Below are positions 48,370 to 63,999 of a stretch of 64,000 nucleotides of DNA, one piece after another. A model generated the notes under the pieces. It saw only the letters and a program-made list of their open reading frames with translations. It ran no database searches and was not told the origin of the DNA. Position 1 is the first letter of the stretch; each line of letters starts with the position of its first letter. This stretch comes from Gammaproteobacteria bacterium (GTDB lineage: Bacteria > Pseudomonadota > Gammaproteobacteria > Eutrophobiales > Eutrophobiaceae): NCBI GenBank assembly GCA_030829955.1, contig JAURNY010000003.1, forward strand, positions 1 through 64,000, in the 5' to 3' direction. A program made the position numbers and the translations under genes.

Positions 48370-49560
48370 TTAAATCCACTTTATCCCCTTAAATATAATA
48401 TCTTTTTTAATATTATCTCTATATTTAATTACCTGATTAAACATTCCTTCTAGAACTAAATCGTCGAGATAATGTGGTTTCACGCCTAACTCTAATAAGC
48501 CTTGATATTTAGGATTATAATAATGCTCCTCTGCTTCTTTTCTTGGGTTCTCAATAGATTCTATCATTACATTGAAGCCAAGTTGCTGCCCTACATTATA
48601 TACTTTATCAGCAAGTTGATTGACACTAAATGTTTCTGTAATTTGATTAAATATTCTTAACTCACTATCTTTTGCCGGGTTTATAACCGCCTTCTCAATG
48701 CATTGCATTGTATCTTTTATGTTTAAATATCCTCGCGTTTGTCCACCTTTTCCATATACAGTCAATGGGTAATCAATTATGGCTTGAGTTATAAAACGAT
48801 TTAAAATAGTGCCAAAAATCTCATCATAAAAGAAAATGATTGATAGATCTTTATCAATTATAGACTCTTCAGTTTCGATTCCATATACCGGTCCTTGCAT
48901 TAAGTCTGTTACTTTTAACTCCCATGTACGAACTGCAAACCAGATTAGATCCGTATCCATGACTTTTGTCGTATGGTATATAGATGAACCCTGACGCGGA
49001 AATAAAAACTTTCCGTTTCTTCCATTGTGTTCTATATCAATCCAACCTTCTTCAATATCGATATTAGGCGTACCATATTCGCCCATTGTACCTAGTTTTA
49101 TAATGTGGCTATCTCTAGAATACTCTTTAACGCTATATAAAAGATTATTAGTGACAAGCAAGTTGTTCGAAATCGTATTATTTGCCGTAGTATTATTCAT
49201 CAATGAATATGGTGCAGATGGTTGCTCAGCATAATGAACAATAGTGTCAGGTATACCTGTATATTTTTTTTCTACACACCAGTCATAATTACATTTTCCA
49301 TTAAAAAGTGCATTCATGCTGTTAATATTAGTTAAATCAGATACACAAACTTTAATTTCTTTTCCTGTGATTTCATGCCATCTCTTCGCTCTTACAGATA
49401 AATCCGGAACTTCATAAAGTGGATTAATATGGAGGTCCTTACATATCGCTCTCTTGTAGTAATTATCAACAACCGTTACTTCATGCCCTCTGCTTGATAA
49501 GTGCATTGCGGTAGGCCATCCCAAATAACCATCTCCGCCCAGTATTAAAATATGACTCAT
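48370..49560 (-). CDS. SQD1-like UDP-sulfoquinovose synthase
   Basis: 396 residues, extended SDR with the SQD1 signature set: GGDGYLGWPTAMHLS, VHYAEQPSAPYS, KLGTMGEYGTPNIDIEEG (catalytic Thr), IYHTTKVMDT (Tyr and Lys), MQGPVYGIET, LTVYGKGGQTRGYLNIKDT. SQD1 joins sulfite to UDP-glucose to give UDP-sulfoquinovose. In a polysaccharide locus the product would be used as a glycan donor, as proposed for archaeal Agl3, since no sulfolipid synthase gene is seen here. galU in the same array supplies UDP-glucose. Confidence 0.88.
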   Translation of the reverse strand: MSHILILGGDGYLGWPTAMHLSSRGHEVTVVDNYYKRAICKDLHINPLYEVPDLSVRAKRWHEITGKEIKVCVSDLTNINSMNALFNGKCNYDWCVEKKYTGIPDTIVHYAEQPSAPYSLMNNTTANNTISNNLLVTNNLLYSVKEYSRDSHIIKLGTMGEYGTPNIDIEEGWIDIEHNGRNGKFLFPRQGSSIYHTTKVMDTDLIWFAVRTWELKVTDLMQGPVYGIETEESIIDKDLSIIFFYDEIFGTILNRFITQAIIDYPLTVYGKGGQTRGYLNIKDTMQCIEKAVINPAKDSELRIFNQITETFSVNQLADKVYNVGQQLGFNVMIESIENPRKEAEEHYYNPKYQGLLELGVKPHYLDDLVLEGMFNQVIKYRDNIKKDIIFKGIKWI

Positions 49561-51247: not shown

Positions 51248-53113
51248 TTATATCTGATTTAATATTTCGTTTAGTTTTCTGTGGTTTTTATCTAAGTAGA
51301 AAAAAGAATCAAGATTAGATGGAATTTGATACTCACCATTAATTGTAGTTTCAATAAATTTTATTAAGTCGATATCATTCGTTATAAAATTTATATTATC
51401 CTCGCCTCTTAATGGACTAAAATTAAAGTTATTTGAATCCAGAAAAACTGCAGTTGGTAATCCAGCAATATACATATCCACAGATCCGGAGGTCATATTG
51501 CCAGAAAATCCTATGTCGTTTGACTCAATGAGTGTACTTAAAGATTCATTACATATATTAATTGAAATATTTCGAAAAATATTAATATCAAGTTTCAATG
51601 ATGGATGACTCTTGAAATTAACAATAATTTCATAATCCAAATTCAGACAAGCTTTATTTACGCACTCAAGCATTAATCTCGTATGTGTCTCATCAAAATC
51701 ACCAAGCACCAATAATTTAATATTCTGTTTTTTTATTGACTTATTTGCGTTCTTTTTTGGAATTTCAAGCAAATACTGATAGCGCATTGCCTCAATTTCA
51801 ATCATTCTTTCTTCTGGCAAACCTGATGTTATAAACATTTCTTTAGACTTTCTCCCATTAACAGCAAACTTAAATGGAAGTGGTTTATGTAGTTTCATTT
51901 CATTGTTAATATCATCAACATGATCGTATGCATTAGTCCCCCAGAATCTAATAGCTGCATGTTGAATTGCTATTAATTTACCATGACCATATTTAGACCA
52001 AGCATAATTAAGTGCACATTCCCAACCTTGATTTTCCCATAAATAAAAACCAATTTTCTGTTTCGGCATATTCTCCAAAGCAGATTCAAATAGATGAGCC
52101 CATAGTAGATTTGTTATACAAATAGGTCCGCACAAAGATGTTTTCCAGTCATGTCGCAATAGGGGCCAAAAATTATTAGCTGAATTGTCAGGTCTAAATG
52201 CTTTTTCTATATTATTTAATTTAATTTTAATTAAACAAAATCTTATCCATTTAGTAATTACTTTAAAGAGTATCTTTGATGTTAAATAAGCATCTAAAAA
52301 TACATGTGATGATAATGATTGATAATTATTCAATTTATTCAAGTAATCTATTGAGTCTGATACTGAGGACTTTACCCCTTTATCTAAATAATGATGAATC
52401 CAGTTACCTTTGTAACCTGATTCTTCCAAATAGACAGGTAGTCCTTCCCATTGCCTTGAATAAAAACTGGCTTCGCCAGAATTAGAAGTAATTAAATTAT
52501 AAAAGTAACTACAATAAAAAATACTTTTATTATTATGCCAAGCAGGAATTTTAACTTTTTTTAATTCCCATTTTTTTAGCACATGCCTTAAACTGATTGC
52601 ACCTCTTATAATATAAGGCAGCCGATCATATATAGTACGTAGCGTATTGGTTTTATTACAATCAAGTAATTTTCCAGTAAAAGTATAATTTTGATTTGTA
52701 GAATATATATATATTGATTCGTAAAGATTTTTGTTTGCAGTTATTAATAAAATACTAGTATATTTTTTTGTTTGTAATAATTCTTCTAATGCAAACAATT
52801 TTATACAGTTATTAATTTCTTTTGACTTGAATGGACTCTTTTCTGCAAGTTGACTCATCCACCACATACTAAAGTCATCATGTAATGCAAAATGTTCTAT
52901 CAGGGATTTATTTTTTATTCGATAACGTCCTAGTCTGGAAATAAAGGATATGTATTTACCCCTCAATCTTTCACCATGTGCTTCAACTAAAGCCGGTATA
53001 GAAATACACGATTCATCATTCGAATACTGCGACCATAATGCAATATCAGCATTGCAAATATCAGGTTCAGGATCCAGATTAGAATCTAGAATTTTCAGGG
53101 TATCATGAGTCAA
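51248..53113 (-). CDS. Large surface-carbohydrate biosynthesis protein, probable GT-B transferase
   Basis: 621 residues, not assigned to a characterised enzyme. The C-terminal half shows GT-B-like order: YLWENQGWECALNYAW, LIAIQHAAIRFWG, KLLVLGDFDETHT, NFKSHPSLKL and GFSGNMTSGSVDMYIAGLPTAVF. The first half is mixed alpha/beta without a clear motif. It resembles uncharacterised proteins of LPS/capsule loci. It directly follows the KdsB-like gene, so transfer of the CMP-activated residue made there is a possible job; that is inference. Confidence 0.6.
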   Translation of the reverse strand: MTHDTLKILDSNLDPEPDICNADIALWSQYSNDESCISIPALVEAHGERLRGKYISFISRLGRYRIKNKSLIEHFALHDDFSMWWMSQLAEKSPFKSKEINNCIKLFALEELLQTKKYTSILLITANKNLYESIYIYSTNQNYTFTGKLLDCNKTNTLRTIYDRLPYIIRGAISLRHVLKKWELKKVKIPAWHNNKSIFYCSYFYNLITSNSGEASFYSRQWEGLPVYLEESGYKGNWIHHYLDKGVKSSVSDSIDYLNKLNNYQSLSSHVFLDAYLTSKILFKVITKWIRFCLIKIKLNNIEKAFRPDNSANNFWPLLRHDWKTSLCGPICITNLLWAHLFESALENMPKQKIGFYLWENQGWECALNYAWSKYGHGKLIAIQHAAIRFWGTNAYDHVDDINNEMKLHKPLPFKFAVNGRKSKEMFITSGLPEERMIEIEAMRYQYLLEIPKKNANKSIKKQNIKLLVLGDFDETHTRLMLECVNKACLNLDYEIIVNFKSHPSLKLDINIFRNISINICNESLSTLIESNDIGFSGNMTSGSVDMYIAGLPTAVFLDSNNFNFSPLRGEDNINFITNDIDLIKFIETTINGEYQIPSNLDSFFYLDKNHRKLNEILNQI

Positions 53114-53124
53114 TATAGAAAACG

Positions 53125-53895
53125 CTATTTTACATTAGTTAAAATGTTTTCAATTTTCTTTAGATCTGTTGGCACGTCTACTGATACAGACATTACTATT
53201 GTTTCTTTCATTTTAATTTTGTGGCCAAGATCAATGAATCGTAATAACTCAATATCCTCAAATTGTTCATTGATAGTTTTATTGCTATTTGAAAATAGTT
53301 TTAGTGCTTTTTTTGTATATCCATAGACAGGTATTTGTTGCTTGTATATAGATTTTTTATCTGAATTTGAATAAGGAACAGGCAATCTTGACATATATAG
53401 TAGATCATCATTTTCATTAACAATAACTTTTATAATTGTATTACTATTAATTTCATTCAAGTCTGTAATTATTTTATAGAGATTGTATGCCATATACCCT
53501 TCAGGGTAATTTTGATAAAGATCCACAATTTGTTTTATCGCTAATGGATCAATAACTGGTTCATCACCCTGTATGTTGATATAAATATCAAAATTATTGT
53601 ATGCATCCATTTCAACAACTTCTGCAAGTCGATCAGTACCTGTTAGGCAGTCATCAGATGTCATAACAACTGGAATATTTTCAGAATTACAGTAATCACT
53701 GATACGTAAATCATCGGTAGCTACTATAAGTTTATCAAGTTGATCTGATTTACTAGCTTGTAAGAAGGTGCGCTTAATCATTGGGATACCATTAATCAGT
53801 GTTAATGGCTTTCCAGGGAATCTGGAAGATTTATATCTGGCAGGAATGATACCAAGCGCGCTAAACGGTTTACCAGGCACTCCATCCACCATCAA
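53125..53895 (-). CDS. KdsB-family cytidylyltransferase
   Basis: 256 residues, CMP-Kdo synthetase family: IIPARYKSSRFPGKPL (CTP loop), ATDDLRISDYC, TGTDRLAEV, INIQGDEPVIDP and VDVPTDLKKIE. Housekeeping KdsB activates Kdo for lipid A core, but this copy sits in a sugar cassette after an AroB-like gene and an SDR, so a different 2-keto acid or cyclitol is plausible. The start overlaps the SDR end by 26 bases. Confidence 0.87.
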   Translation of the reverse strand: MMVDGVPGKPFSALGIIPARYKSSRFPGKPLTLINGIPMIKRTFLQASKSDQLDKLIVATDDLRISDYCNSENIPVVMTSDDCLTGTDRLAEVVEMDAYNNFDIYINIQGDEPVIDPLAIKQIVDLYQNYPEGYMAYNLYKIITDLNEINSNTIIKVIVNENDDLLYMSRLPVPYSNSDKKSIYKQQIPVYGYTKKALKLFSNSNKTINEQFEDIELLRFIDLGHKIKMKETIVMSVSVDVPTDLKKIENILTNVK

Positions 53896-54625
53896 CGGTT
53901 ATCACATCACCAGTTACATAGGAAGATAATTCCGACGCTAAAAATAAACAAACATCTGCAACTTCTCGACTTTCACCCCATCTACGCATAGGTGTTCTAT
54001 CTATAGTAAATTCATAAAGATCTGATTTCTCTTTAAAGTTATCAAAATAAGAAGTTTTACAAAATCCCGGGGCTACAGCGTTTATTTGAATATTTTTCTC
54101 AGCATACTCAAGCGCCAATGATTTGGTAAACCCAATGATAGCTGCTTTAGATGTGACATATGCATTTAATTCTGGCAAGCCATTTATCCCTGCTACTGAT
54201 GAAAGATTAATAATTTTTCCTTGATTTTTCCCAAGCATATAAGGCAACACTCTTTGGCTAAGCATAAACATGCTCGAAACATTTACCCGAAAGACTGTTT
54301 CAAATTCTTCTAATGATGTGCTACTGAACTCTTTCCTAAACCTCATTCCAGCATTATTTACCAGTATATCTATGCCACCAAAATGCTTGATTACATTCTG
54401 AATAAAATTGTCGCAGGTTGCTTCATTAGAAACATCTCCGTCCACACTAAACAACCTTGAATCATCAGCAGATAACTCATCTTGTAGGCTGGATAAATCT
54501 TCATTGCTTCTGGTAATGACAGCTAACTTAGCTCCCTCTTCATAAAATCTTTTAACAATTGATCTGCCAATTCCTTTGCCTGCGCCCGTAACAATACATA
54601 CTTTGTTTTCTAATAACTCAGTCAT
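53870..54625 (-). CDS. SDR family oxidoreductase (FabG-like)
   Basis: 251 residues with all classical SDR sites: TGAGKGIG, NNAG, SSVAG, YVTSK (YxxxK intact), VAPGF and VDGGWS. FabG-like SDRs in sugar loci oxidise or reduce a ring or chain hydroxyl. It lies between the AroB-like cyclase (gap 1 base) and the KdsB-like gene, so it probably acts on the product of the cyclase. It is distinct from the defective-Tyr SDR at 4989-5744. Confidence 0.88.
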   Translation of the reverse strand: MTELLENKVCIVTGAGKGIGRSIVKRFYEEGAKLAVITRSNEDLSSLQDELSADDSRLFSVDGDVSNEATCDNFIQNVIKHFGGIDILVNNAGMRFRKEFSSTSLEEFETVFRVNVSSMFMLSQRVLPYMLGKNQGKIINLSSVAGINGLPELNAYVTSKAAIIGFTKSLALEYAEKNIQINAVAPGFCKTSYFDNFKEKSDLYEFTIDRTPMRRWGESREVADVCLFLASELSSYVTGDVITVDGGWSAW

Positions 54626-54626
54626 T

Positions 54627-55748
54627 TTATAAGATCACTTTCTCACAAGCTTTTTGAATGATTGAATTATCTATTCCAGAATATGTATCTGCTGAGCCTA
54701 ATTCATCCAACAAGACAAAACGTATTTGATTAGCTTTTCTTTTCTTATCTTTATGCATCAGTTTCATAACTTTTTTTATCAACTCACTACTTTCTAGCTC
54801 AAGATCATATGACTGAAGTGAAACCGGTAGTTTAAGCTTCGTCAAGATATCTCTTGCATAGTCAGATTTAGTTTCAGAAAAATTCAGATGTTTTTCACCT
54901 AGCTCAAGAACTGCTGATATGCCTAAAGCAACCCCTTCGCCATGCCTAAGTAACTCATGCTTATCAGTTTGAGTCGCCATTTCTATTGCATGACCAATTG
55001 TATGTCCATAATTTAGAAGCAATCTTTTTCCAGATTCCTTGATATCACCCTTAACATGATCAATTTTTATTTCTAGTGAACGTTTAATACAGTGTACTAA
55101 ATGTTGTTGGTCTTTATTCAAAATACTTTCAGAATTATTGCTGAGAAAATCTAATAATTCAGTATCAGCTATCAAACCGCATTTTACGACTTCAGCCAAA
55201 CCAGAAATATAATCTCTATCAGGCAATGTAGTAATAAAATCCAAATCCATAAAATTTGCTATTGGATGATAGTAGTTTCCAACGGCATTGATGGTATCTC
55301 GAAAGTTAATGGCTACTTTGCCTCCTACACTGCTATCAACCATACCCATCAGGGTTGTTGGCATGTGTACCAGATTCATACCACGATACCATGTACTAGC
55401 TACAAATCCGGCCAAGTCGCCAACAACACCTCCACCAACAGCAATTATCGTTGAATCTCTGGCATAATCTTTGGTTTCAAGCAAACCATATAATTTCAAG
55501 ACTTCATTAAAAGTCTTACTGATTTTACCTCCTGGCATAACATATATATCCGTATCAAAACCAGTATCAGTCAGTTTGTTAGAAAGTTCCTGCGCGTATC
55601 CGCTTGAAAAATACTCATCTGTTACTATTAGAACTTTTGGATTACTTGTATTACTAGAAAGAAAGTTTGCCACTTCATTTTGCAAGCCTTTCTTTATCCA
55701 AATGTCATAAGGCTTATCGGAAATATCTACGTTAAGTTTGCTCATCAA
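54627..55748 (-). CDS. 3-dehydroquinate-synthase-like sugar-phosphate cyclase
   Basis: 373 residues, AroB superfamily. NAD site GGGVVGD (105-111), metal ligands in AEVVK (E186), GHTIGH (H249) and RHGEG (H269), and catalytic VGGK (K144) are kept. The DHQ-synthase substrate stretch HPxGKN is changed to FRDTIN (149-154), losing the phosphate-contact lysine. No other shikimate gene is nearby. Sedoheptulose-7-phosphate cyclases belong to this superfamily, so a cyclitol or related ring product is possible; ordinary AroB is not excluded. Confidence 0.82.
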   Translation of the reverse strand: MMSKLNVDISDKPYDIWIKKGLQNEVANFLSSNTSNPKVLIVTDEYFSSGYAQELSNKLTDTGFDTDIYVMPGGKISKTFNEVLKLYGLLETKDYARDSTIIAVGGGVVGDLAGFVASTWYRGMNLVHMPTTLMGMVDSSVGGKVAINFRDTINAVGNYYHPIANFMDLDFITTLPDRDYISGLAEVVKCGLIADTELLDFLSNNSESILNKDQQHLVHCIKRSLEIKIDHVKGDIKESGKRLLLNYGHTIGHAIEMATQTDKHELLRHGEGVALGISAVLELGEKHLNFSETKSDYARDILTKLKLPVSLQSYDLELESSELIKKVMKLMHKDKKRKANQIRFVLLDELGSADTYSGIDNSIIQKACEKVIL

Positions 55749-55750
55749 AC

Positions 55751-56428
55751 TTATTTATCAAAGCCCGCATTAATAAGTAGATCAGCAATTTCATAATCAT
55801 CCTCACTTTCAATATCAAAACCTTCATATTTACCAACAAGCTTGATAAAAGGCTCATCGGCAATTCTTCTTTTTTTTGTGTTAAACAGATTTTTGCTAAA
55901 CACATATACTGCTGAAGATTCGAGCATAACAGGATCAACTGAAGCTAAATTAGGCGTCTTGCCATTAGTTTCTATACTATAATTCAGTGGTTTATTTTTA
56001 ATCCAGGCAAGTTTTTTATGCTGAGTGGCAACAAACGCAGAATCAAAATTCCCATTAACAACAGCGGTAATGCACTCCTGAACAGTATTAGCTTTTATGA
56101 AAGGACATCGTGGATGCATTAAGACAATAAAATCGGCATCTGAAACCTGCAAAAATCTCTCTATAATTTCTTCAATAGAAGTATCTTGATTATCAAGATC
56201 CAAATCTCTTTTTATCACAGTGAAATCTAGCGCATCATCTATATGTTTTGCAACATTTGTATTGGATGTGTAAATAACAACATCCTGAACACTCTCAACT
56301 TCATTACATAATTTAATTGTTCTTTCTAGCAATGAGTGTCCACCGACTGTCAATGTGTCACGATCTTTAACACTGCCAACTGGAAATTGATAATTTGACC
56401 AATATGGAATTAAAGCGATTATTTTCAT
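55751..56428 (-). CDS. Acylneuraminate cytidylyltransferase-like protein
   Basis: 225 residues of the NeuA/CMP-sugar transferase family: IIALIPYW at the start in place of the usual IPARGGSK, then TLTVGGHSLLERTIKLC, DVVIYTSNT, FIVLMHPRCPFI and FDIESEDDYEIA. The altered first loop suggests an unusual nucleotide or sugar. It is the second cytidylyltransferase of the block. Two residues separate it from the AroB-like gene. Confidence 0.8.
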   Translation of the reverse strand: MKIIALIPYWSNYQFPVGSVKDRDTLTVGGHSLLERTIKLCNEVESVQDVVIYTSNTNVAKHIDDALDFTVIKRDLDLDNQDTSIEEIIERFLQVSDADFIVLMHPRCPFIKANTVQECITAVVNGNFDSAFVATQHKKLAWIKNKPLNYSIETNGKTPNLASVDPVMLESSAVYVFSKNLFNTKKRRIADEPFIKLVGKYEGFDIESEDDYEIADLLINAGFDK

Positions 56429-56453
56429 ATTCTACATACCATAGCGTATATTC

Positions 56454-57245
56454 CTAACCATGAAACACATCCAAACTATCATTCTTAAATTTAAAAATAA
56501 TAGGCCTTGGCATAACCATTTTTGCAGAAGTAATAATTCTAAATTTCTCAAATTCAATATTTTCTACTTTGACTGAGACAACTTGACCAGGCCGAAGTAT
56601 CCTTTTGATTTGATTTTTATCCGCACTTAAAGTCAAAGAATCAATAATTTTCAAATTTAAACATTGTATTCTTTCAGTTGGATTAACGAATACTATTTCA
56701 TATTGATTATTATTTTCAAATTGATACTGAATTCTATATTCACGCTTTAAAAAACTCTTGCCACCAAGATATTGAATTTCGCCATTAGCATTAATACTAA
56801 CCGCATCAAAGTTTCCGTGCACATAAGAACGAAGCGGTGAATTATTATGTAAATATGAAACATAACCTCTCTCCGCTAAATAAGAACCCAGCTCTTGAAT
56901 TTTTGCAGGTGTTTCAGAATGAAAAATACTGAAAGTGCCATATTGCCCATCAGCATCAATTACATAATCAGATAAATCTACAATACAACGTTTATTTGCT
57001 ATTAACTGAATATCCCGTTTCCTGAGCAAGTTACCATTTGCATCAAATATAATTAATGTAATAGTTCTCGAAGTTTCAATATTCATAAATAAACTTACTA
57101 CATCCAATAGCTCAAAATATGTTTTCCAATTTGATGATACACGCCAGATAAACAAGTCACTTGTCGTTAGTTCAGGTGTATATGGCTTGGCAGTTAAAGG
57201 TTGCTTATATCGCCATATTATTTTATTTAATAAGTTATTTTGCAT
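56454..57245 (-). CDS. Uncharacterised beta-rich protein, paralogue of the next gene
   Basis: 263 residues, not recognised. Mostly beta-strand-like alternation without signal peptide or membrane segment. Residues about 45-160 (SLFMNIETS to YVHGNFD) resemble a region at about 150-245 of the upstream neighbour (LLMNIEKSA to VIHGNRW). It lies between a methyltransferase/unknown pair and the cytidylyltransferase, so it is probably a partner in making or handling the CMP-linked residue. No function is claimed. Confidence 0.55.
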   Translation of the reverse strand: MQNNLLNKIIWRYKQPLTAKPYTPELTTSDLFIWRVSSNWKTYFELLDVVSLFMNIETSRTITLIIFDANGNLLRKRDIQLIANKRCIVDLSDYVIDADGQYGTFSIFHSETPAKIQELGSYLAERGYVSYLHNNSPLRSYVHGNFDAVSINANGEIQYLGGKSFLKREYRIQYQFENNNQYEIVFVNPTERIQCLNLKIIDSLTLSADKNQIKRILRPGQVVSVKVENIEFEKFRIITSAKMVMPRPIIFKFKNDSLDVFHG

Positions 57246-57250
57246 GGATG

Positions 57251-58033
57251 TTATAAACTTAATCTTTTAAACCAATAATCTTTCATTATTTTTTGCACTC
57301 CCCATCTATTACCATGAATTACCATAGATGCTGGTGGATGCGTATGCTCAAGACTTAGATGTTTTTTATCTTTTGTAATAGAAAAATATAATGGGATACC
57401 ACACATATCTTTACTCAGATTCAGGATTAAATCTTCCTCAGTGAAATTAAGGTTATCTAGTGAAATTACATTAATCATGTTATTTTGAAGTTTAAATGTA
57501 TTTCTATGTTTTTTATCATGGGCATTATAAATATCAAGAGTACCTTCTCTGTATTTTGCACTTTTTTCAATATTCATCAGTAATAGATAATTGTTTATTT
57601 GGGGATTAAATTGATGAAATGTACAAAATGACAACATGGAACCAGGCGATGGAAATGGATCAATTTCTCCCTGATAACTTGTTTCTGAAAATTCCGATGA
57701 CAGTCCTAGACTTGCACGCCATGCGGGCATGGCAGTTTCTGATTTATTTATTGGAAGCATTTCAGACACTTCAGGTAATGCACTGTCAGTCATTGATAAC
57801 AATACTATTGATGATTGTTGTTTTACTTCAATTAAATCATTGCCAGCTATTCTCATTAAGCAATCTGATTTAATGCTATCAAAAACTCTACTTCGCCATA
57901 CTTCACCATCACTATATGTAATATTGATATATTTACTATTACATGTTTTATTCTCCCAGTTATTAGGTGCGTAGTTGCATAGCGTTATCCACCCTGTGCA
58001 TTCTGGTGCTAATAACAATGGATAGTAAGACAT
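57251..58033 (-). CDS. Uncharacterised beta-rich protein
   Basis: 260 residues, not recognised. It begins MSYYPLLLAPECTGWI, shows a middle PSPGSMLSFCTFHQFN and ends with a region like its downstream neighbour (LLMNIEKSA, SMVIHGNRWG). It has no signal peptide and no membrane helix. The two genes are five bases apart and three bases after the methyltransferase gene, so they are co-translated. They may form a heteromer; this is inference. Confidence 0.55.
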   Translation of the reverse strand: MSYYPLLLAPECTGWITLCNYAPNNWENKTCNSKYINITYSDGEVWRSRVFDSIKSDCLMRIAGNDLIEVKQQSSIVLLSMTDSALPEVSEMLPINKSETAMPAWRASLGLSSEFSETSYQGEIDPFPSPGSMLSFCTFHQFNPQINNYLLLMNIEKSAKYREGTLDIYNAHDKKHRNTFKLQNNMINVISLDNLNFTEEDLILNLSKDMCGIPLYFSITKDKKHLSLEHTHPPASMVIHGNRWGVQKIMKDYWFKRLSL

Positions 58034-58036
58034 ATT

Positions 58037-58966
58037 TTATAACTCCGGTTTTTTTGCAATTGCTCGCAACCACCAAGCTGGTTCTTTTGATTCGATATGT
58101 GCTTTGTGGGGAATAATAGCAACACGTTCCAGATCATTTTGCATAATCTCCAGACCTGGTTCATCACGTAAAAATAAACGAACGAACCCTAAAGATATTA
58201 ATTTATTTCTAACTCTTCTAAATATATTTTGAAAATAACTATTACATTTTAATTTATTAATCAGATTGCCATAATAACCCATGTAAACCGTTTTAAAACC
58301 AGTAGTTTCAAGTAATACTTCCATTGATTTTTTATCGAAAAAAAGAAGATGAGGCTCATCTAGATTCTTGTGAAGAAAATCCAGACAGGGTACTTCTATA
58401 AATATAGCTCCTCCTACATTAAGAGTTTTGAATGCTTTCAACAGAAATTCTCCAGGATCCGTAACATGTTCGAGAACATGAGACATAATTATTAAATCAA
58501 TATTTCTAAGATTATCCAGCTCATCTTCATCAATAAGAGTTATATTCATATCTTGAAGTTTTGAATGACATGATTTATCTGTTTCAAGGGCTAGATATGT
58601 AGTCTGAGGATGTTTTTCCTGCCAGATATTTGCAAGATATCCATCTCCTGGACCAAACTCCAGAACTCTTTTTACTCTACCTTCTGCTGCACCAAGATAT
58701 TTAGAAATTGTAGCTACTCGAATCCTCGCAATAGCTGAAAAGAAAGCTTTACTTATAGTGTCTTTTGCTTTGCCTCCATGCGCACTATGAAAATACTCGT
58801 GATTAAACTCTCGTAATTCATGCATGTCCGGCATAGGTGAAGCAAACGTCAATGTGCAGTCTTGGCAATAAATCAAATTCATATTTTTGAAACAATCATG
58901 ATCACCACGGTAGGCAGCGGATTGTTTGGTATTGTTACTATTACAAATGGGACAAACTACATCCAT
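58037..58966 (-). CDS. SAM-dependent methyltransferase with N-terminal zinc ribbon
   Basis: 309 residues. CPICNSN and CQDCTLTF form a zinc-ribbon at the start. The Methyltransf_23-like domain has VLEFGPGDGYLANIW for SAM, then IIMSHVLEHV and GGAIFIEVPC. Similar proteins in capsule and LPS loci methylate sugars or their precursors. It lies between the acetyltransferase and the unknown beta-rich pair. Confidence 0.85.
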   Translation of the reverse strand: MDVVCPICNSNNTKQSAAYRGDHDCFKNMNLIYCQDCTLTFASPMPDMHELREFNHEYFHSAHGGKAKDTISKAFFSAIARIRVATISKYLGAAEGRVKRVLEFGPGDGYLANIWQEKHPQTTYLALETDKSCHSKLQDMNITLIDEDELDNLRNIDLIIMSHVLEHVTDPGEFLLKAFKTLNVGGAIFIEVPCLDFLHKNLDEPHLLFFDKKSMEVLLETTGFKTVYMGYYGNLINKLKCNSYFQNIFRRVRNKLISLGFVRLFLRDEPGLEIMQNDLERVAIIPHKAHIESKEPAWWLRAIAKKPEL

Positions 58967-58985
58967 ATCTTATTATGTATTGATA

Positions 58986-59534
58986 TCATTGCCTTTCTCC
59001 AATTTTACGCGCTGGCACACCAGCTACAATTGAGTAAGGCTCTGTTGATTTAGTCACTACCGCACCCGCCGCTACGACGGTGCCATTAGCTAAAGAAACA
59101 TTCGCAGTAATAACTGCATTTGATGCAATCCATACATCATCACCAATAGTAATCTCACCTTTGAGATGAGCTTGTTCATTTATCTTGCATGAACGTTTGA
59201 AATCATGATCACAACACCTTATGACGACATTAGGTGCAATTAAAACATCATCGCCAATCGTAACCTTCCCGCCAGATGCATTTATGTGCACGTTGGTATT
59301 TAATCTGACATTATTACCAATAATCATTTCACCTTGATTACTATACAAATACATAGAGCCCATAGATGAAAAATTGTTGCCAATATTAATATTGTCTGGT
59401 GAAACTATTGTAGAACTGAGTTTAATTCTGAAGTTATTTCCACAATTCTTTAGTAATCTACTTATTATTAAGCTATATAATTCATTTATTAATCTAACTG
59501 ACCAAATTCTGAGTGTATTCAAATATTGAAACAT
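58986..59534 (-). CDS. Hexapeptide-repeat O- or N-acetyltransferase
   Basis: 182 residues. An N-terminal helix is followed by left-handed beta-helix repeats (IGNNVRLNTNVHIN, IGDDVLIAPNVVI, IGDDVWIASNAVI), the catalytic His in CCDHDF and the end SIVAGVPARKIGER. It belongs to the maltose-acetyltransferase-like group common in O-antigen modification. It shares a base with the stop/start of the upstream gene. Confidence 0.88.
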   Translation of the reverse strand: MFQYLNTLRIWSVRLINELYSLIISRLLKNCGNNFRIKLSSTIVSPDNINIGNNFSSMGSMYLYSNQGEMIIGNNVRLNTNVHINASGGKVTIGDDVLIAPNVVIRCCDHDFKRSCKINEQAHLKGEITIGDDVWIASNAVITANVSLANGTVVAAGAVVTKSTEPYSIVAGVPARKIGERQ

Positions 59535-60889
59535 TAATTACTCTTTAATAATGAATGTGTAATTTCTAGTAATTTCAATTTTCCTGAAGCAAAGTGAATT
59601 AAAGAATCACGTTCACCAAAGTGATGTTCAATTACATTTCCTGTTGGATCATAATAAATGGATTGTTTGTTTAAGGAATCACTTATATATAATGCTGATG
59701 TAAATGGATATGCAATTACAATATTAGCGCCAAATATTAATTTATAAGGGTTCTCATTATGATTTGCTAATGTGATAACACGTTTTGAATCAAGATTCTC
59801 AAGATACTCAAAATACTCCTTATCATACAATGGGTTATAGCCACGTTTGGTTTTAATAGTCAATTTAACAGATTTGCCAAATTGACTCTCTAAATTACTG
59901 GATAATTCAATAATATCATTTATAAATTTAAATAAATTAGCAGGATTATGATAATTAGTTATTTGCCCGTTTCTTAGAGCTACTTCATCACTAAATGGAG
60001 AAGCATCAAAAACGACTAAATTAATACTATTTGTATTTATCTCTGTATATTCTGGCATGCACCATACAATAGGACCTACTACTTTAATATTATCACCGAG
60101 CCCAAGTTCCATTAAATAATCTGCAAATGGTTTAGTCCAAACCCAATGCGTATCTGCCCTGATCCATTTCAAATTTGGGACATCAGTATCTAAAGGAGAG
60201 TCTTTGTAATTAATTGGCTTCCATGCCTGAGCATACCAGATCATATGAGTATTCACATTTTGTAGTACTCGTGTAAAAAGCGATTGGTTCGTATAGCTTG
60301 AGCATGTTAATACTATAGCTTGCAGTTTTTCTGATTCTGTCAACAATTCTGCTAATCTTGCGTACACAAATTCATGGGCTATAAGTAGTAATTCAGGATT
60401 ATTTTTAGTTGCTCTATAACAAATAAAAAATAACGAGAGAAAATCTATAAAATATCGACACCGAAGTAAAAAACCTATTTTACTTTCACGCAACAATGAA
60501 ACTAGAGGGTCAGTGCAGTAATTAAATTCATTATTACTGCTTTTAAATAAATTACTGCTTTTGATAAAATAATACTTATTTTCATTTAAAGGCTCTACTT
60601 GACCACTTTTACAAAACTCGACGAAACGCGAATCGTCATTGTCCTGAAATAGATTTTCATCTCCAATGCCATAAACCAAGATGGCACCATTACTCATATC
60701 TGTTTTTTTTCTTATACTAACTATAGAGAATAAAACATAAGCCAAATGCTTTGTCATGTTAAGCAAATGTTTTAACGTTTGTTTAAAAGTAAAAGTAATG
60801 TTTCCATTATCACAATTTAATATTGCATCATTTAAGTCGATAGAATCATTAATTTCAGAAAAAGATGAAACTTTATTGTCTTCTGTCAA
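59534..60889 (-). CDS. Uncharacterised surface-polysaccharide protein, probable GT-B transferase
   Basis: 451 residues from a TTG at 60889. It is not assigned to a known enzyme. The C-terminal half has a GT-B-like order (WYAQAWKPI, VVGPIVWCMPEYT, IVFDASPF-like strand, TIKTKRGYNPLY, VIAYPFTSALYISDSLNKQSIYYD). The frame stays open without a stop from 60889 back to the phyH-like stop near 61091 (about 66 codons, for example NRLEVSVHCFSTNDIKERL), yet has no ATG, GTG or TTG there. The real start may be rare, or the 5' end may be damaged. Confidence 0.6.
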   Translation of the reverse strand: MTEDNKVSSFSEINDSIDLNDAILNCDNGNITFTFKQTLKHLLNMTKHLAYVLFSIVSIRKKTDMSNGAILVYGIGDENLFQDNDDSRFVEFCKSGQVEPLNENKYYFIKSSNLFKSSNNEFNYCTDPLVSLLRESKIGFLLRCRYFIDFLSLFFICYRATKNNPELLLIAHEFVYARLAELLTESEKLQAIVLTCSSYTNQSLFTRVLQNVNTHMIWYAQAWKPINYKDSPLDTDVPNLKWIRADTHWVWTKPFADYLMELGLGDNIKVVGPIVWCMPEYTEINTNSINLVVFDASPFSDEVALRNGQITNYHNPANLFKFINDIIELSSNLESQFGKSVKLTIKTKRGYNPLYDKEYFEYLENLDSKRVITLANHNENPYKLIFGANIVIAYPFTSALYISDSLNKQSIYYDPTGNVIEHHFGERDSLIHFASGKLKLLEITHSLLKSN

Positions 60890-61090
60890 AATACACTTAA
60901 TTTTTCTAGCGTACGACTGATAACTAATTTCTACTATTTTTTGTATTAATCGTTCTTTAATATCATTTGTAGAAAAACAATGGACTGAAACTTCAAGTCT
61001 ATTAATAGAACTATGTACTTTCGAAATACTATTTTCGAAAGCTTGATTGCAATGATTAGAATTTATAGTTTGAATAATAAAAATTATCGA
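60890..61090 (-). other. Open in-frame stretch upstream of the 451-residue gene
   Basis: 201 bases between the dioxygenase stop and the TTG start of the next gene. They are open in the same frame as the downstream gene and protein-like, but have no usual start codon. No promoter or terminator hairpin was recognised. Confidence 0.4.
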
Positions 61091-61984
61091 TTAAAAATCA
61101 GGCTTAAATTTAATAGCCTTATTTAAACTGTTATTAATATAATCCGGCCAATTAGAATTTTTAATGTAAGTTTTTATATCATCAGGGTCGTCATATACTG
61201 ATGTCATATGATGACCAGTTGTAAAATTTAAATGCATGATTTTTCTTGAGTTTCCTTGTTGATAATTACCACAATGAAAACCACTAGTATCAAAGATATA
61301 TAACGTTCCTTTTTTACCTGTGAAATGAACTCTATTAGAATAAGATTTTACTAGCTCCATCGATTTTTCAACTGGCATTTGTATCCCATGACGTAAAAAT
61401 GAACGTTTATGTGAACCCGGAACATACTCTGTATGTGTATCATTCATAGAAATATCAGATACATTTAAGATAATCGATACTTGATGAAGATGGTCAACAT
61501 GCATGTTTCCATTGTTTATTTTATTTACTCCTTTATAGTCAACTTTCATTATTCTGGGTTGGTTTCTAAAATAATGTTGTCTTTTATAGTATCCATATAG
61601 AATTGAATGTATTTCATCATCAAACAATAGCGAAGAAAGTTTCTCATCTAATAATGAAATATATGCTGAAATTTGCATTCCACCTGCTACATATTCATTT
61701 TTTTTAAGTTCTTTAATTGAAAATCTTCTATTAGGATTTTGAAAATCACTTTCGACAATAACATTGTTATGTTCTTCTATTTTTTTGAAATACGCATCAT
61801 CGAGATATTTTGCAACGTCAAGAAACCTATCACACTCTAGTTTCAAAAAGCCATTTTCGTTAAATTCTTCAATTTTTTTTCTAACTTTGTTATTTATACT
61901 TAGAGGTCTAATAGCAGGAGTTTTATATTTGGCAATTGCATAGCAATCTTTTATGAAACGTTTACTATTTTTTATGATTTCCAT
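61091..61984 (-). CDS. Phytanoyl-CoA dioxygenase (PhyH)-like Fe(II)/2-oxoglutarate oxygenase
   Basis: 297 residues. The iron site is visible as HVDHLHQ (H-x-D) and, later, the distal His in SGFHCGN, with the 2-oxoglutarate-binding Arg in NSRKIMHLNF. VPGSHKRSF is the usual PhyH loop. PhyH-like enzymes hydroxylate or oxidise varied substrates, including sugars and lipids. Its place in the CMP-sugar block suggests oxidative tailoring of that residue; the substrate is unknown. Confidence 0.85.
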   Translation of the reverse strand: MEIIKNSKRFIKDCYAIAKYKTPAIRPLSINNKVRKKIEEFNENGFLKLECDRFLDVAKYLDDAYFKKIEEHNNVIVESDFQNPNRRFSIKELKKNEYVAGGMQISAYISLLDEKLSSLLFDDEIHSILYGYYKRQHYFRNQPRIMKVDYKGVNKINNGNMHVDHLHQVSIILNVSDISMNDTHTEYVPGSHKRSFLRHGIQMPVEKSMELVKSYSNRVHFTGKKGTLYIFDTSGFHCGNYQQGNSRKIMHLNFTTGHHMTSVYDDPDDIKTYIKNSNWPDYINNSLNKAIKFKPDF

Positions 61985-62001
61985 AAATAAAAAATATAGA
62001 A

Positions 62002-63444
62002 TTAGTAATTGATTGATTGTTTGATTGTGCTACATATTTTTTCAATATCTATATCTCGTAATTCAGGTGAACTTGGTAAACTAAGACCGGTTGAAGAAAT
62101 ATACTCTGAGTTAGGCAATGATTGTCCTGTATTATAGACAGGCTGTTTATGAACTGGCGGGAATACTGGTCTTGAGTCTATTTTAACCTCGCGAAGTTGC
62201 AACATCAGATTCTCAGCAGAAATACCTGCAATATCTGGATCAATCAATATTGTATAAAGCCAATAAACATTTGACACATGCGGCAACTCAACTGGTAATG
62301 TTATACCAGGTAAATTACCCAGATATTGTTTATATTTACTTGCAATATCTTTTTTCCTTTCCAGTATATTTTCAAGTTTAGACATTTGAGCAACACCAAT
62401 AGCTGCCTGCAAATTTGTCATTCGATAATTATATCCTATAACCTCATGCCAATATCTTTTTTCAGGCGTCATGCCGTGATCACGTAACAATCTACATTTA
62501 TCAGCAAACTCTTTATTATTAGTAACTATCATACCCCCTTCCCCAGTAGTAATAATCTTATTACCAAAAAAACTATATACTCCCATATTTCCTAATGAGC
62601 CTGTTGGTTGATTCTTATAGGTTGAGCCCTGTGCTTCTGCGACATCTTCAATTACAACAAGATTAAATTCTTTGGCTATGGCGTTAATCCCATCCATTTC
62701 TGCAGGATGACCATATAAGTGGACTGGAATAATTGCTTTAGTTTTTTTTGTGATTGATCCACGTATTTGTGCCAGACAGATATTCCATGTGGATTTGTCT
62801 ACGTCTACAAAAACTGGTTTTGCACCCGTATATGTAACAGCATTTGCAGTAGATATGAATGTCAATGATGGAACAATCACTTCATCACCTTCGCCCACTC
62901 CAGCAGCTAACAATGATAAATGTAAGCCTGTTGTTGCTGAACTACAGGCTACTGCATATTGACAATTTGTAGAATCAGCCATCAACTCTTCAAATTTCGT
63001 GACAAATGGACCGCCAGAGGATACCCAACCAGTTATGATGCATTCACTGACTAACTGAAGTTCTTCGTCATCTAATAATGGTTTAGCAACTGCAATATGT
63101 CTGCGTTTATCGTACAGATGAAAATCTATTACTTTTTGCTCGCTATCCAGGACTGGTATTAGTCGAATTTTGTCACTAAATAATTGTGATATTTCTTCAA
63201 TAGAATTTGACTCATGTGCAACAATAGCTTCCTTAAACGGTATGACATTTATGTTTGATTGAAGTCCATGTCCTTCTAATAAGGCTCTACGTATGTCTCC
63301 GTCTGTTAATACGCGTTGAAATTTGCCTTTCGAATTAGTTACAAAAGTTGCGCCGATTTCACCTCTACCAATTGCCTGCATTGCCTGCTGTATAGTGCAA
63401 GTTGATAATACTGAAATATCTAAAATGATATTTTTATTAGTCAT
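62002..63444 (-). CDS. CBS-domain fused DegT/DnrJ/EryC1 sugar aminotransferase
   Basis: 480 residues, about 110 longer than the usual DegT aminotransferase. Residues 1-115 form a CBS pair (VLTDGDIRRALLEG, IRLIPVLDSEQKV). The aminotransferase follows: GWVSSGGPFVTKFE, CSSATTGLHLSLLA, VIEDVAEAQGS, FFGNKIITTGEGGM with the PLP lysine, and YNYRMTNLQAAIG. It makes an amino sugar from a keto sugar, as in perosamine synthesis. The CBS part may sense adenosyl or cytidyl nucleotides. Genuine fusion: the frame is continuous. Confidence 0.9.
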   Translation of the reverse strand: MTNKNIILDISVLSTCTIQQAMQAIGRGEIGATFVTNSKGKFQRVLTDGDIRRALLEGHGLQSNINVIPFKEAIVAHESNSIEEISQLFSDKIRLIPVLDSEQKVIDFHLYDKRRHIAVAKPLLDDEELQLVSECIITGWVSSGGPFVTKFEELMADSTNCQYAVACSSATTGLHLSLLAAGVGEGDEVIVPSLTFISTANAVTYTGAKPVFVDVDKSTWNICLAQIRGSITKKTKAIIPVHLYGHPAEMDGINAIAKEFNLVVIEDVAEAQGSTYKNQPTGSLGNMGVYSFFGNKIITTGEGGMIVTNNKEFADKCRLLRDHGMTPEKRYWHEVIGYNYRMTNLQAAIGVAQMSKLENILERKKDIASKYKQYLGNLPGITLPVELPHVSNVYWLYTILIDPDIAGISAENLMLQLREVKIDSRPVFPPVHKQPVYNTGQSLPNSEYISSTGLSLPSSPELRDIDIEKICSTIKQSINY

Positions 63445-63447
63445 ATA

Positions 63448-63999
63448 TTACTTACTTAAATTGGACAATAAGGCAATGCTTGATTTTACACTCTGAAGGC
63501 CATCATAGACTTCCAAAGTCAAAGTTCTACCTTTTAAATTATTGTTTTTCAATACCGCTTGAATTTCATGTTCATTAGAAATCCCATGATTCTGATCATG
63601 TTTGCCATCGTTTCCACTGATATGCAAATAATCAGTTAGCGAGATTAATTTATTTGCTTCTTCTTGAAAATTTAGGGCTAACGTATTGGTGCTTACCTTG
63701 AGATGAGCAAGATCAAGCAAAAGCTTAAAATCCAGATACTCTTTTAATTCTTCATAAGTTGAATAATCCGTTAACAAAAAAGGATTATTGCTTTTATAAG
63801 TTTGATAGTTAGTGCTTGAAAGCACATTATTTTCTACATAAAGTTGAACTTTATCTTCTGCATGATCCAATAATTTTTCCCAAGCATATTTAAATCTTTG
63901 CAATGCTTTTTCTCTTGAATTTAGAGTTCTATACTTAATTTCTTTCCCTGCTTCATGTGCAGAAAAATCCATTAAAAATCCAGCATGTACCCCATACTT
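63448..63999 (-). CDS. Sugar phosphate isomerase/epimerase (TIM barrel), 5' partial
   Basis: The C-terminal part of an AP-endonuclease-2-like TIM-barrel protein: HAGFLMDFSAHE, VQLYVENN, LLLDLAHLKV with metal-binding acids and His, LHISGNDGKHDQNHG, and LTLEVYDG. The frame runs to the right edge, so the start lies outside. An internal ATG at 63972 is not the start, because the conserved sequence continues upstream. Such enzymes move keto groups in sugars or inositols. It is four bases from the CBS-aminotransferase gene. Confidence 0.8.
   Translation of the reverse strand, partial: KYGVHAGFLMDFSAHEAGKEIKYRTLNSREKALQRFKYAWEKLLDHAEDKVQLYVENNVLSSTNYQTYKSNNPFLLTDYSTYEELKEYLDFKLLLDLAHLKVSTNTLALNFQEEANKLISLTDYLHISGNDGKHDQNHGISNEHEIQAVLKNNNLKGRTLTLEVYDGLQSVKSSIALLSNLSK

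Follow-up and report, generated by a model that had tools for sequence, protein, structure and literature searches.

A recurrent gene module that may couple an AroB-type enzyme to the CMP activation of an acidic sugar

Can an enzyme related to dehydroquinate (DHQ) synthase serve the making of a CTP-activated sugar acid? The question is raised by a block of genes at one end of the window, that is, the whole stretch of 64,000 nucleotides analysed here, in which an AroB-like cyclase stands among genes for the activation and modification of sugars. The combination of an AroB-type enzyme with CTP activation is a recurrent and apparently uncharacterised module, and literature searches for its gene combination returned nothing. 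The module probably makes an acidic, CTP-activated building block that decorates the cell surface or flagella.

Extent and recurrence of the module

As originally claimed, the block is co-directional and contains the enzymes named for it, the exception being a PhyH oxygenase, for which Pfam matches stay below threshold (Table 1). Three of its proteins, not two, lack a family. The lack of a condensing synthase turned out to be an effect of the window edge: three NeuB-family genes lie just outside.

Table 1. Features of the block and of its immediate surroundings.
Feature	Positions	Strand	Remarks
TIGR04326-family surface carbohydrate biosynthesis protein	51248-53113	-	429.8 bits, cut-off 250
KdsB-like cytidylyltransferase	53125-53895	-	predicted active CTP:sugar-acid enzyme of the module
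SDR oxidoreductase	53870-54625	-	predicted ketone reductase acting after the cyclase
AroB-like sugar phosphate cyclase / phospholyase (aroB paralogue)	54627-55748	-	TIGR01357 (aroB) 329.9 bits, curated cut-off 305; TIGR04425 214 bits, curated cut-off 400
NeuA-like protein	55751-56428	-	Pfam CTP_transf_3, E 1.8e-5; predicted inactive as cytidylyltransferase
Protein without family	56454-57245	-	
Protein without family	57251-58033	-	
Methyltransferase	58037-58966	-	
Hexapeptide acetyltransferase	58986-59534	-	
Protein without family	59534-60889	-	
Gene noted as 'PhyH'	61091-61984	-	sub-threshold Pfam: 2OG-FeII_Oxy_5 E 0.03, PhyH E 0.07
CBS-fused DegT/LegC-like aminotransferase	62002-63444	-	
TIM-barrel (xylose isomerase-like) gene	63448-64302	-	first 302 bases beyond the window
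NeuB-family gene	64299-65378		outside the window (contig positions)
NeuB-family gene	66111-67115		outside the window (contig positions)
NeuB-family gene	77839-78900		outside the window (contig positions)

The reading of the whole 11-kb block as one pathway was dropped. Only four genes (53125-56428), encoding the NeuA-like protein, the AroB-like cyclase, the SDR and the KdsB-like protein, form a unit that is conserved in other genomes; the aminotransferase, TIM barrel, oxygenase, methyltransferase and acetyltransferase do not accompany them at the other loci compared. A NeuB-like synthase is absent from the conserved unit and stands separately upstream in the window locus. The upstream NeuB genes could supply other substrates in this genome.

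Genomes were scanned with the cyclase loop pattern alone, followed by tblastn, which yielded 12 further cyclases of the window-cyclase clade, spread over several phyla. Inspection of their neighbourhoods found a NeuA-like gene adjoining the cyclase in all 12 loci, which is more than chance because the scan had used only the cyclase loop. An SDR, 52-57% identical to that of the window, lies beside the cyclase in ten loci, an aldo/keto reductase takes its place in one (L086), and an orthologous KdsB-like gene is present in four. This supports the original prediction that a dedicated AroB-type enzyme is linked to CTP activation. The smallest version is a five-gene operon in Oleiphilaceae (L085), which holds a TPR protein and the genes for the NeuA-like protein, the cyclase, the SDR and the KdsB-like protein; as it contains just these, no dedicated synthase is needed. 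In a Pseudomonadales MAG (L093) the module sits amid flagellar genes, with flgK/flgL on one side and fliC/flaG/fliD/fliS on the other.

The module is rare and patchy, as judged from the Sulfurovum family, where three of 175 genomes carry it. Large class and phylum samples of Pseudomonadota gave no close relatives at strict E-values. Viral contigs held no relatives, and their matches to the loop pattern were due to chance; in the pattern scan of genomes, L049, L055 and L058 are likewise chance matches, and L056 and L060 are different AroB-like proteins. That the four genes form a self-contained unit which has spread horizontally is part of our best explanation, and we consider it evenly balanced.

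An AroB paralogue and an unequal pair of cytidylyltransferase-like proteins

The window cyclase passes the curated cut-off of the aroB model and falls below that of TIGR04425. In the tree, the 13 module cyclases do not group with true DHQ synthases but form their own clade with support of 100/100. The window copy is not the only aroB-like gene of its genome, which has a separate canonical aroB next to aroK. The altered loop is real: it reads FRDTIN in the window and [IV]N[FY]RxTxNxxGNYYHP in the module consensus, and the lysine of the GKN motif (K161), found in 40 of 40 AroB sequences, is replaced by Ile or Val in all 13 module cyclases. All 11 residues listed for the DAHP pocket of DHQ synthase (PMC6262012) are kept in the 13 proteins, one of which is truncated at the last (K356), and with these contacts fully conserved a changed loop need not mean a changed substrate. 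A single-sequence AlphaFold model of the cyclase was unusable (pLDDT 37.7). The neighbouring SDR shows the motifs TGxxxGIG, NNAG and YxxxK.

The original prediction counted two different cytidylyltransferases, and two active enzymes making two donors were considered; the active sites did not uphold this. The window NeuA-like protein has an altered CTP loop, as had been noted, from which the P-loop KN is missing, and it also lacks the equivalent of Asp211. Together with Asp209 this residue forms the metal site of NeuA, and its exchange for alanine lowers kcat 15,000-fold (PMC2901514). The Asp211 equivalent is lost in all nine degenerate copies (the window and eight others), by two separate losses on the tree, and some NeuA-like relatives have both CTP loop and metal Asp intact. 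The modelled fold is that of a CMP-sialate synthetase (pLDDT 84.5; best PDB match the CMP-Kdn synthetase 9t4z, E 8.9e-17). From these residues we predict a protein inactive as a cytidylyltransferase that has kept its sugar-side half.

The KdsB-like protein, 63-68% identical to the module KdsB proteins of Sulfurovum, Oleiphilaceae and Pseudomonadales, belongs with them to a separate clade (support 100/100). A canonical kdsB, whose product is 36% identical to it, lies elsewhere in the window genome (C28), and a separate kdsB is likewise present in each of the four other genomes with a KdsB-containing module. The catalytic lysine and two metal-binding aspartates of KdsB (K19, D95 and D219; PMC3149649) have equivalents in all five module proteins, in whose C-terminal half a conserved His has given way to Gln and a conserved Gln to Leu. 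The module is accordingly predicted, on sequence grounds, to hold one competent cytidylyltransferase, the KdsB-like one. KdsB-like genes (32-34% identity) are also found 7-10 kb from L087 and L091, two loci with an intact NeuA. Since surface-glycan loci often hold several cytidylyltransferases, it is partly to be expected that a degenerate NeuA has another in its vicinity.

A proposed route and its alternatives

We give an even chance to a pathway in which the module would draw a phosphorylated C7 2-keto-3-deoxy sugar acid from central metabolism, DAHP being the likeliest candidate, and convert it to an acidic glycosyl donor activated with CMP. The substrate, order of steps, product and acceptor that we infer are as follows. 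The AroB-type enzyme, using NAD and zinc, would transiently oxidise the sugar and eliminate phosphate, to give either a DHQ-like carbocycle or a ring-opened 3,7-dideoxy-2,6-diulosonate; the SDR, or the aldo/keto reductase in one locus, would reduce the new ketone, and the KdsB-like enzyme would place CMP on the hydroxyl next to the carboxylate. A neighbouring glycosyltransferase could then attach the product to flagellin or a surface glycan. The candidate in the window is the TIGR04326-family protein, whose gene begins 11 bases past the end of the KdsB-like gene and whose position suggests this role; elsewhere TPR, GT29-like or polysialyltransferase-like proteins are candidates, the last of these standing at the same position in L088. 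The NeuA-like protein may represent the ancestral cytidylyltransferase, whose function the KdsB-like enzyme would have taken over as the CTP and metal sites were lost in the window and its relatives, and it may be kept for a second role, perhaps holding the sugar acid.

As to the product, a 3,7-dideoxy-heptulosonate donor is a tentative choice. It is placed slightly ahead of a carbocycle because an ester of CMP with a quinate-type tertiary alcohol would be unable to serve as an ordinary glycosyl donor; the remaining probability belongs to other C7-C8 acids or to a wrong pathway. The carbocyclic product, which we regard as unlikely, would arise if the SDR reduced a DHQ-like or epimeric keto acid to a quinate-like cyclitol acid, on which CMP at the tertiary hydroxyl beside the carboxylate would mimic Kdo C2. 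The likeness of quinate C1 to the anomeric centre of Kdo argues for it, as do an SDR or AKR gene after the cyclase and the conservation of all DHQ synthase active-site residues, including those of the aldol step. Such an ester, however, has no anomeric centre, so the oxocarbenium-ion route by which CMP-sialate and CMP-Kdo donate would be closed to it, and the neighbours include sialyltransferase-like proteins, albeit with weak scores. Plain DHQ as the product would make a second DHQ synthase superfluous, and the kept DAHP pocket stands in tension with the need for a new product.

It is improbable that the cyclase is a second, ordinary DHQ synthase boosting DHQ supply, with the adjoining SDR and cytidylyltransferases serving unrelated surface sugars. 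Its aroB score and DAHP pocket would suit this, and two module MAGs (G786 and G791) yielded no further strong aroB, so the cyclase might serve as AroB there. A separate aroB is, however, present in the window genome and in 10 of the 12 others, and the linkage to NeuA-like and SDR genes across several phyla, the conserved loss of the GKN lysine and the copy among flagellin genes speak against it. Still more doubtful is that the entire locus encodes a single large pathway to a legionaminic or nonulosonic acid, with the acid coming from the upstream NeuB genes and the cyclase on a side branch. Upstream there are indeed NeuB-like genes together with genes for a PtmE-like CBS nucleotidyltransferase and a CBS aminotransferase of the LegC type, but the module also occurs without nearby NeuB, as in L085 and L093. 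A cyclase acting on sedoheptulose 7-phosphate, as in EEVS-type pathways with a neutral C7 cyclitol as product, is very unlikely despite transaldolase-family genes near L087, L091 and a TIGR04425 cyclase in Legionellales SP289, given that the DHQ synthase-type pocket is fully kept, that the enzyme matches EEVS in the PDB (4p53, E 1e-32) far less well than DHQ synthase (E 4e-59), and that KdsB-like activation suggests a carboxylate.

Returning to the diversion of DAHP, we propose with less than even confidence that the route is new: by way of a specialised AroB-type enzyme, DAHP would give a CMP-activated acidic donor, either a 3,7-dideoxy-heptulosonate or its carbocyclic counterpart, with which flagellin and the cell surface would be glycosylated, and a CMP-sialate synthetase without catalytic activity would be retained as a partner protein. 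If true, the CMP-activated sugar acids would gain a new class, and aromatic biosynthesis would be linked to surface glycans. Current models would label the module genes as ordinary aromatic-pathway and LPS genes; genes called aroB, kdsB and neuA in scattered genomes would then have other functions. The five-gene operon and the flagellar copy lend themselves to direct tests.

Comparison with known systems

The module cyclase has in common with AroB its fold family, its zinc ligands, the DAHP pocket and a score above the TIGR01357 cut-off. It differs by its clade and its loop, and its gene is tied to CMP transfer genes rather than to those of the shikimate pathway. Similarly, the KdsB-like proteins retain the family and catalytic residues of CMP-Kdo synthetase and depart from it in clade, identity and the His/Gln exchange. 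The NeuA-like protein has the fold of the synthetases for CMP-Neu5Ac, CMP-Kdn and CMP-Pse, which are its best PDB matches, with CTP loop and metal Asp missing in the window copy and eight others.

EEVS, DDGS, DOIS and EboD belong to the same superfamily as the cyclase, and we know of no case of CMP activation in their pathways. Compared over the whole protein, secondary-metabolism cyclases with solved structures are much less similar to the window enzyme. For EEVS, DDGS and DOIS a set of 14 active-site residues serves as a fingerprint (Kean et al. 2014, as cited in PMC4426668), and EboD, whose clade is likewise uncharacterised, belongs to a conserved operon and has been mislabelled as DHQ synthase (PMC5133447). 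TIGR04425, an AroB-related putative sugar phosphate phospholyase (cyclizing), likewise comprises AroB paralogues beside an SDR, and of five loci inspected three also have a cytidylyltransferase-like gene. Unlike the module, these loci mostly carry an SIS isomerase and Gfo/Idh, often with a phosphoglycerate-dehydrogenase-like gene, and the one cyclase aligned keeps the loop lysine (INFRSYKN) that the module cyclases have lost.

A conserved unit around an AroB paralogue

Judged by its sequence, the window cyclase is a paralogue of AroB. Its genome holds a second DHQ-synthase-family copy (contig C29, 35% identical) that adjoins aroK and has the canonical HPLGKN loop, and in the tree the module cyclases split from AroB at 100/100 support. 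Scanning 84,980 species genomes for nothing but the cyclase loop, as the DNA pattern of [IV]N[FY]RxxxNxxGNxYxP, yielded 18 loci, 12 of which encode cyclases 44–52% identical to that of the window. Ten of the 12 other genomes carrying such a relative have a separate AroB; none was found in genome G786 and only a weak partial match in G791, which may reflect incomplete assembly or a real exception.

A NeuA-like gene adjoins the cyclase in all 12 neighbourhoods, and an SDR follows it in ten, once with a methyltransferase in between. Of the remaining two loci, one meets a contig end and the other (L086:11098-12823, Sulfurovum) has an aldo/keto reductase in the SDR place and a different NeuA-type enzyme in the KdsB place. 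Four loci (L085, L088, L089, L093) resemble the window in having an orthologous KdsB-like gene after the SDR. The titles of the carriers name Pseudomonadales, Oleiphilaceae, Alphaproteobacteria, Deltaproteobacteria, Sulfurovum, Ignavibacteriae, Omnitrophota, Saganbacteria and other MAGs; of the Sulfurovum family, only 3 of 175 genomes have the module. This pattern fits horizontal spread. One Saganbacteria MAG encodes a CBS-fused transaldolase (L087:4755-5777) close to the module.

The settings of the module vary. In the Oleiphilaceae locus L085 a TPR protein, NeuA-like, cyclase, SDR and KdsB-like genes form a tight five-gene set flanked by unrelated genes on the opposite strand. In a Pseudomonadales MAG (L093) the module, with a TPR protein, is preceded by flgK and flgL and followed by flagellin, flaG, fliD and fliS, a position where genes for flagellin glycosylation are usually found. 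A TPR protein near the module in L086 has a weak GT29 sialyltransferase match, and in L088 a polysialyltransferase-like protein directly follows KdsB, the position of the TIGR04326 protein in the window; each of these glycosyltransferase assignments is weak.

Gene content of the window block and beyond its edge

The other genes that the original prediction had assigned to the pathway do not accompany the module in other loci, and the three family-less proteins are likewise not conserved with it. The contig is 97 kb long, of which the window is the initial 64 kb, and the genome measures 1.89 Mb. The condensing synthase noted as missing was an edge effect, since three NeuB-family genes lie just past the edge; they are outside the module. 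With these, extra cytidylyltransferases and a PtmE-like gene, the locus probably makes several nonulosonic acids. Within a surface glycan locus, the protein at 48370-49560 resembles UDP-sulfoquinovose synthase below cut-off (411 versus 575 bits) and possibly serves a different sulfo-sugar.

Features of the block and of the same locus past the window edge (contig C32)
Feature	Position	Strand	Basis
TIGR04326 surface carbohydrate protein	directly after KdsB-like gene		
KdsB-like cytidylyltransferase	53125-53895	minus	family scan
SDR	53870-54625	minus	family scan
DHQ-synthase-family cyclase	54627-55748	minus	family scan
NeuA-like protein	55751-56428	minus	family scan
No family match, first	56454-57245	minus	family scan
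No family match, second	57251-58033	minus	family scan
Methyltransferase and hexapeptide acetyltransferase	between second and third	minus	family scan
No family match, third	59534-60889	minus	family scan
Oxygenase-like protein (weak)	after third	minus	family scan
CBS-fused LegC-like aminotransferase	after oxygenase-like protein	minus	family scan
TIM-barrel gene, 284 aa, partial at window edge	63448-64302	minus	
Three different NeuB-family synthases	C32 64299-65378, 66111-67115, 77839-78900	minus	
Two further cytidylyltransferases	C32 65368-66114, 76512-77201		
PtmE-like CBS-fused nucleotidyltransferase	C32 70960-72024		

Active sites of the cyclase and the cytidylyltransferases

All 11 residues of the DAHP pocket described for S. 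aureus DHQS (PMC6262012) are present in the 13 module cyclases, one of them truncated at the last position, and all 13 keep the zinc ligands. The sole change among the classical active-site positions checked is the GKN loop lysine, which is Ile or Val in 13/13 as opposed to Lys in 40/40 AroBs. Together these features favour AroB-type chemistry on a DAHP-like substrate, but with a changed outcome.

The module KdsB-like enzymes retain the Lys and two metal Asp of the two-metal mechanism (PMC3149649). They form their own clade (100/100), carry in 5/5 Gln and Leu in place of the His and Gln found in nearly all canonical KdsBs, and occur in genomes that each also contain a canonical kdsB; their sugar is thus probably not Kdo.

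The NeuA-like family has the CMP-sialate synthetase fold and exists in two states. The SxRxxxKN loop and DxD metal pair are intact in L087, L090, L091, L092 and one copy of the tandem pair in each of L094 and L095, versus degenerate in the window, L085, L086, L088, L089, L093, L096 and the other tandem copies. Degenerate copies have always lost the second Asp and mostly have a disrupted CTP loop; the equivalent D211A exchange in N. meningitidis lowers kcat 15,000-fold (PMC2901514). Two cytidylyltransferases had been noted in the window block, but the active sites point to one CYTIDYLYLTRANSFERASE in the module, not two: the NeuA-like copy lacks the second metal Asp and the KdsB-like enzyme keeps its catalytic residues.

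The NeuA-like tree requires two separate losses. In complete loci with a degenerate copy, a putatively competent enzyme is adjacent, namely the module KdsB (five loci), the NeuA-type L086b or the intact tandem copy. Reading these as replacements is tempered by KdsB-like genes 7–10 kb from intact NeuA-like copies in L087 and L091, and surface-glycan clusters often contain several cytidylyltransferases. The sugar-side half is kept, with invariant Lys139, Trp142, Glu170 and Tyr175. We infer that the NeuA-like protein has a second function that outlasted catalysis. The tandem pairs (L094:8483-9807, L095:10620-11957), each with one copy having and one lacking the metal and CTP sites, suggest a division of labour after duplication.

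Possible chemistry and relation to known systems

In the 12 neighbourhoods no NeuB, aldolase or DAHP synthase is found repeatedly beside the unit, and the L085 five-gene set contains none. The substrate is therefore expected to be drawn from general metabolism, and DAHP is the best candidate because its pocket is kept. AroB chemistry on DAHP would remove phosphate and form a ketone that the SDR could reduce. If the ring does not close, reduction of the 6-ketone would give a 3,7-dideoxy-heptulosonate, which is of a type that KdsB-like enzymes normally accept and would be an ordinary donor. Ring closure would instead give a quinate-like product; CMP could be attached to its hydroxyl next to the carboxylate, but such an ester would not be a normal glycosyl donor. 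We tentatively rank the open-ring 3,7-dideoxy-heptulosonate slightly higher.

The NCBI family TIGR04425, AroB-related putative sugar phosphate phospholyases, is a different AroB paralogue from the module cyclase. Five such loci were seen, with SIS, Gfo/Idh, SDR and cyclase genes; L118, L119, L120 and L121, which share SDR and cyclase and mostly have SIS and Gfo/Idh, represent a second uncharacterised AroB-paralogue pathway. In Legionellales bacterium SP289 (L037:497-11970) a TIGR04425-type cyclase is flanked by an SDR and an HpaI-like aldolase, and a PseF/NeuA-like gene comes next. Upstream of them lie genes for a SIS isomerase, Gfo/Idh, a phosphoglycerate-dehydrogenase-like protein and a transaldolase. 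A literature search, with most subscription journals outside its scope and therefore weak as evidence, found no published description of the module or of the TIGR04425 pairing. Because three of the five TIGR04425 loci carry a cytidylyltransferase-like gene, an AroB relative seems to have been paired with CTP activation in two lineages.
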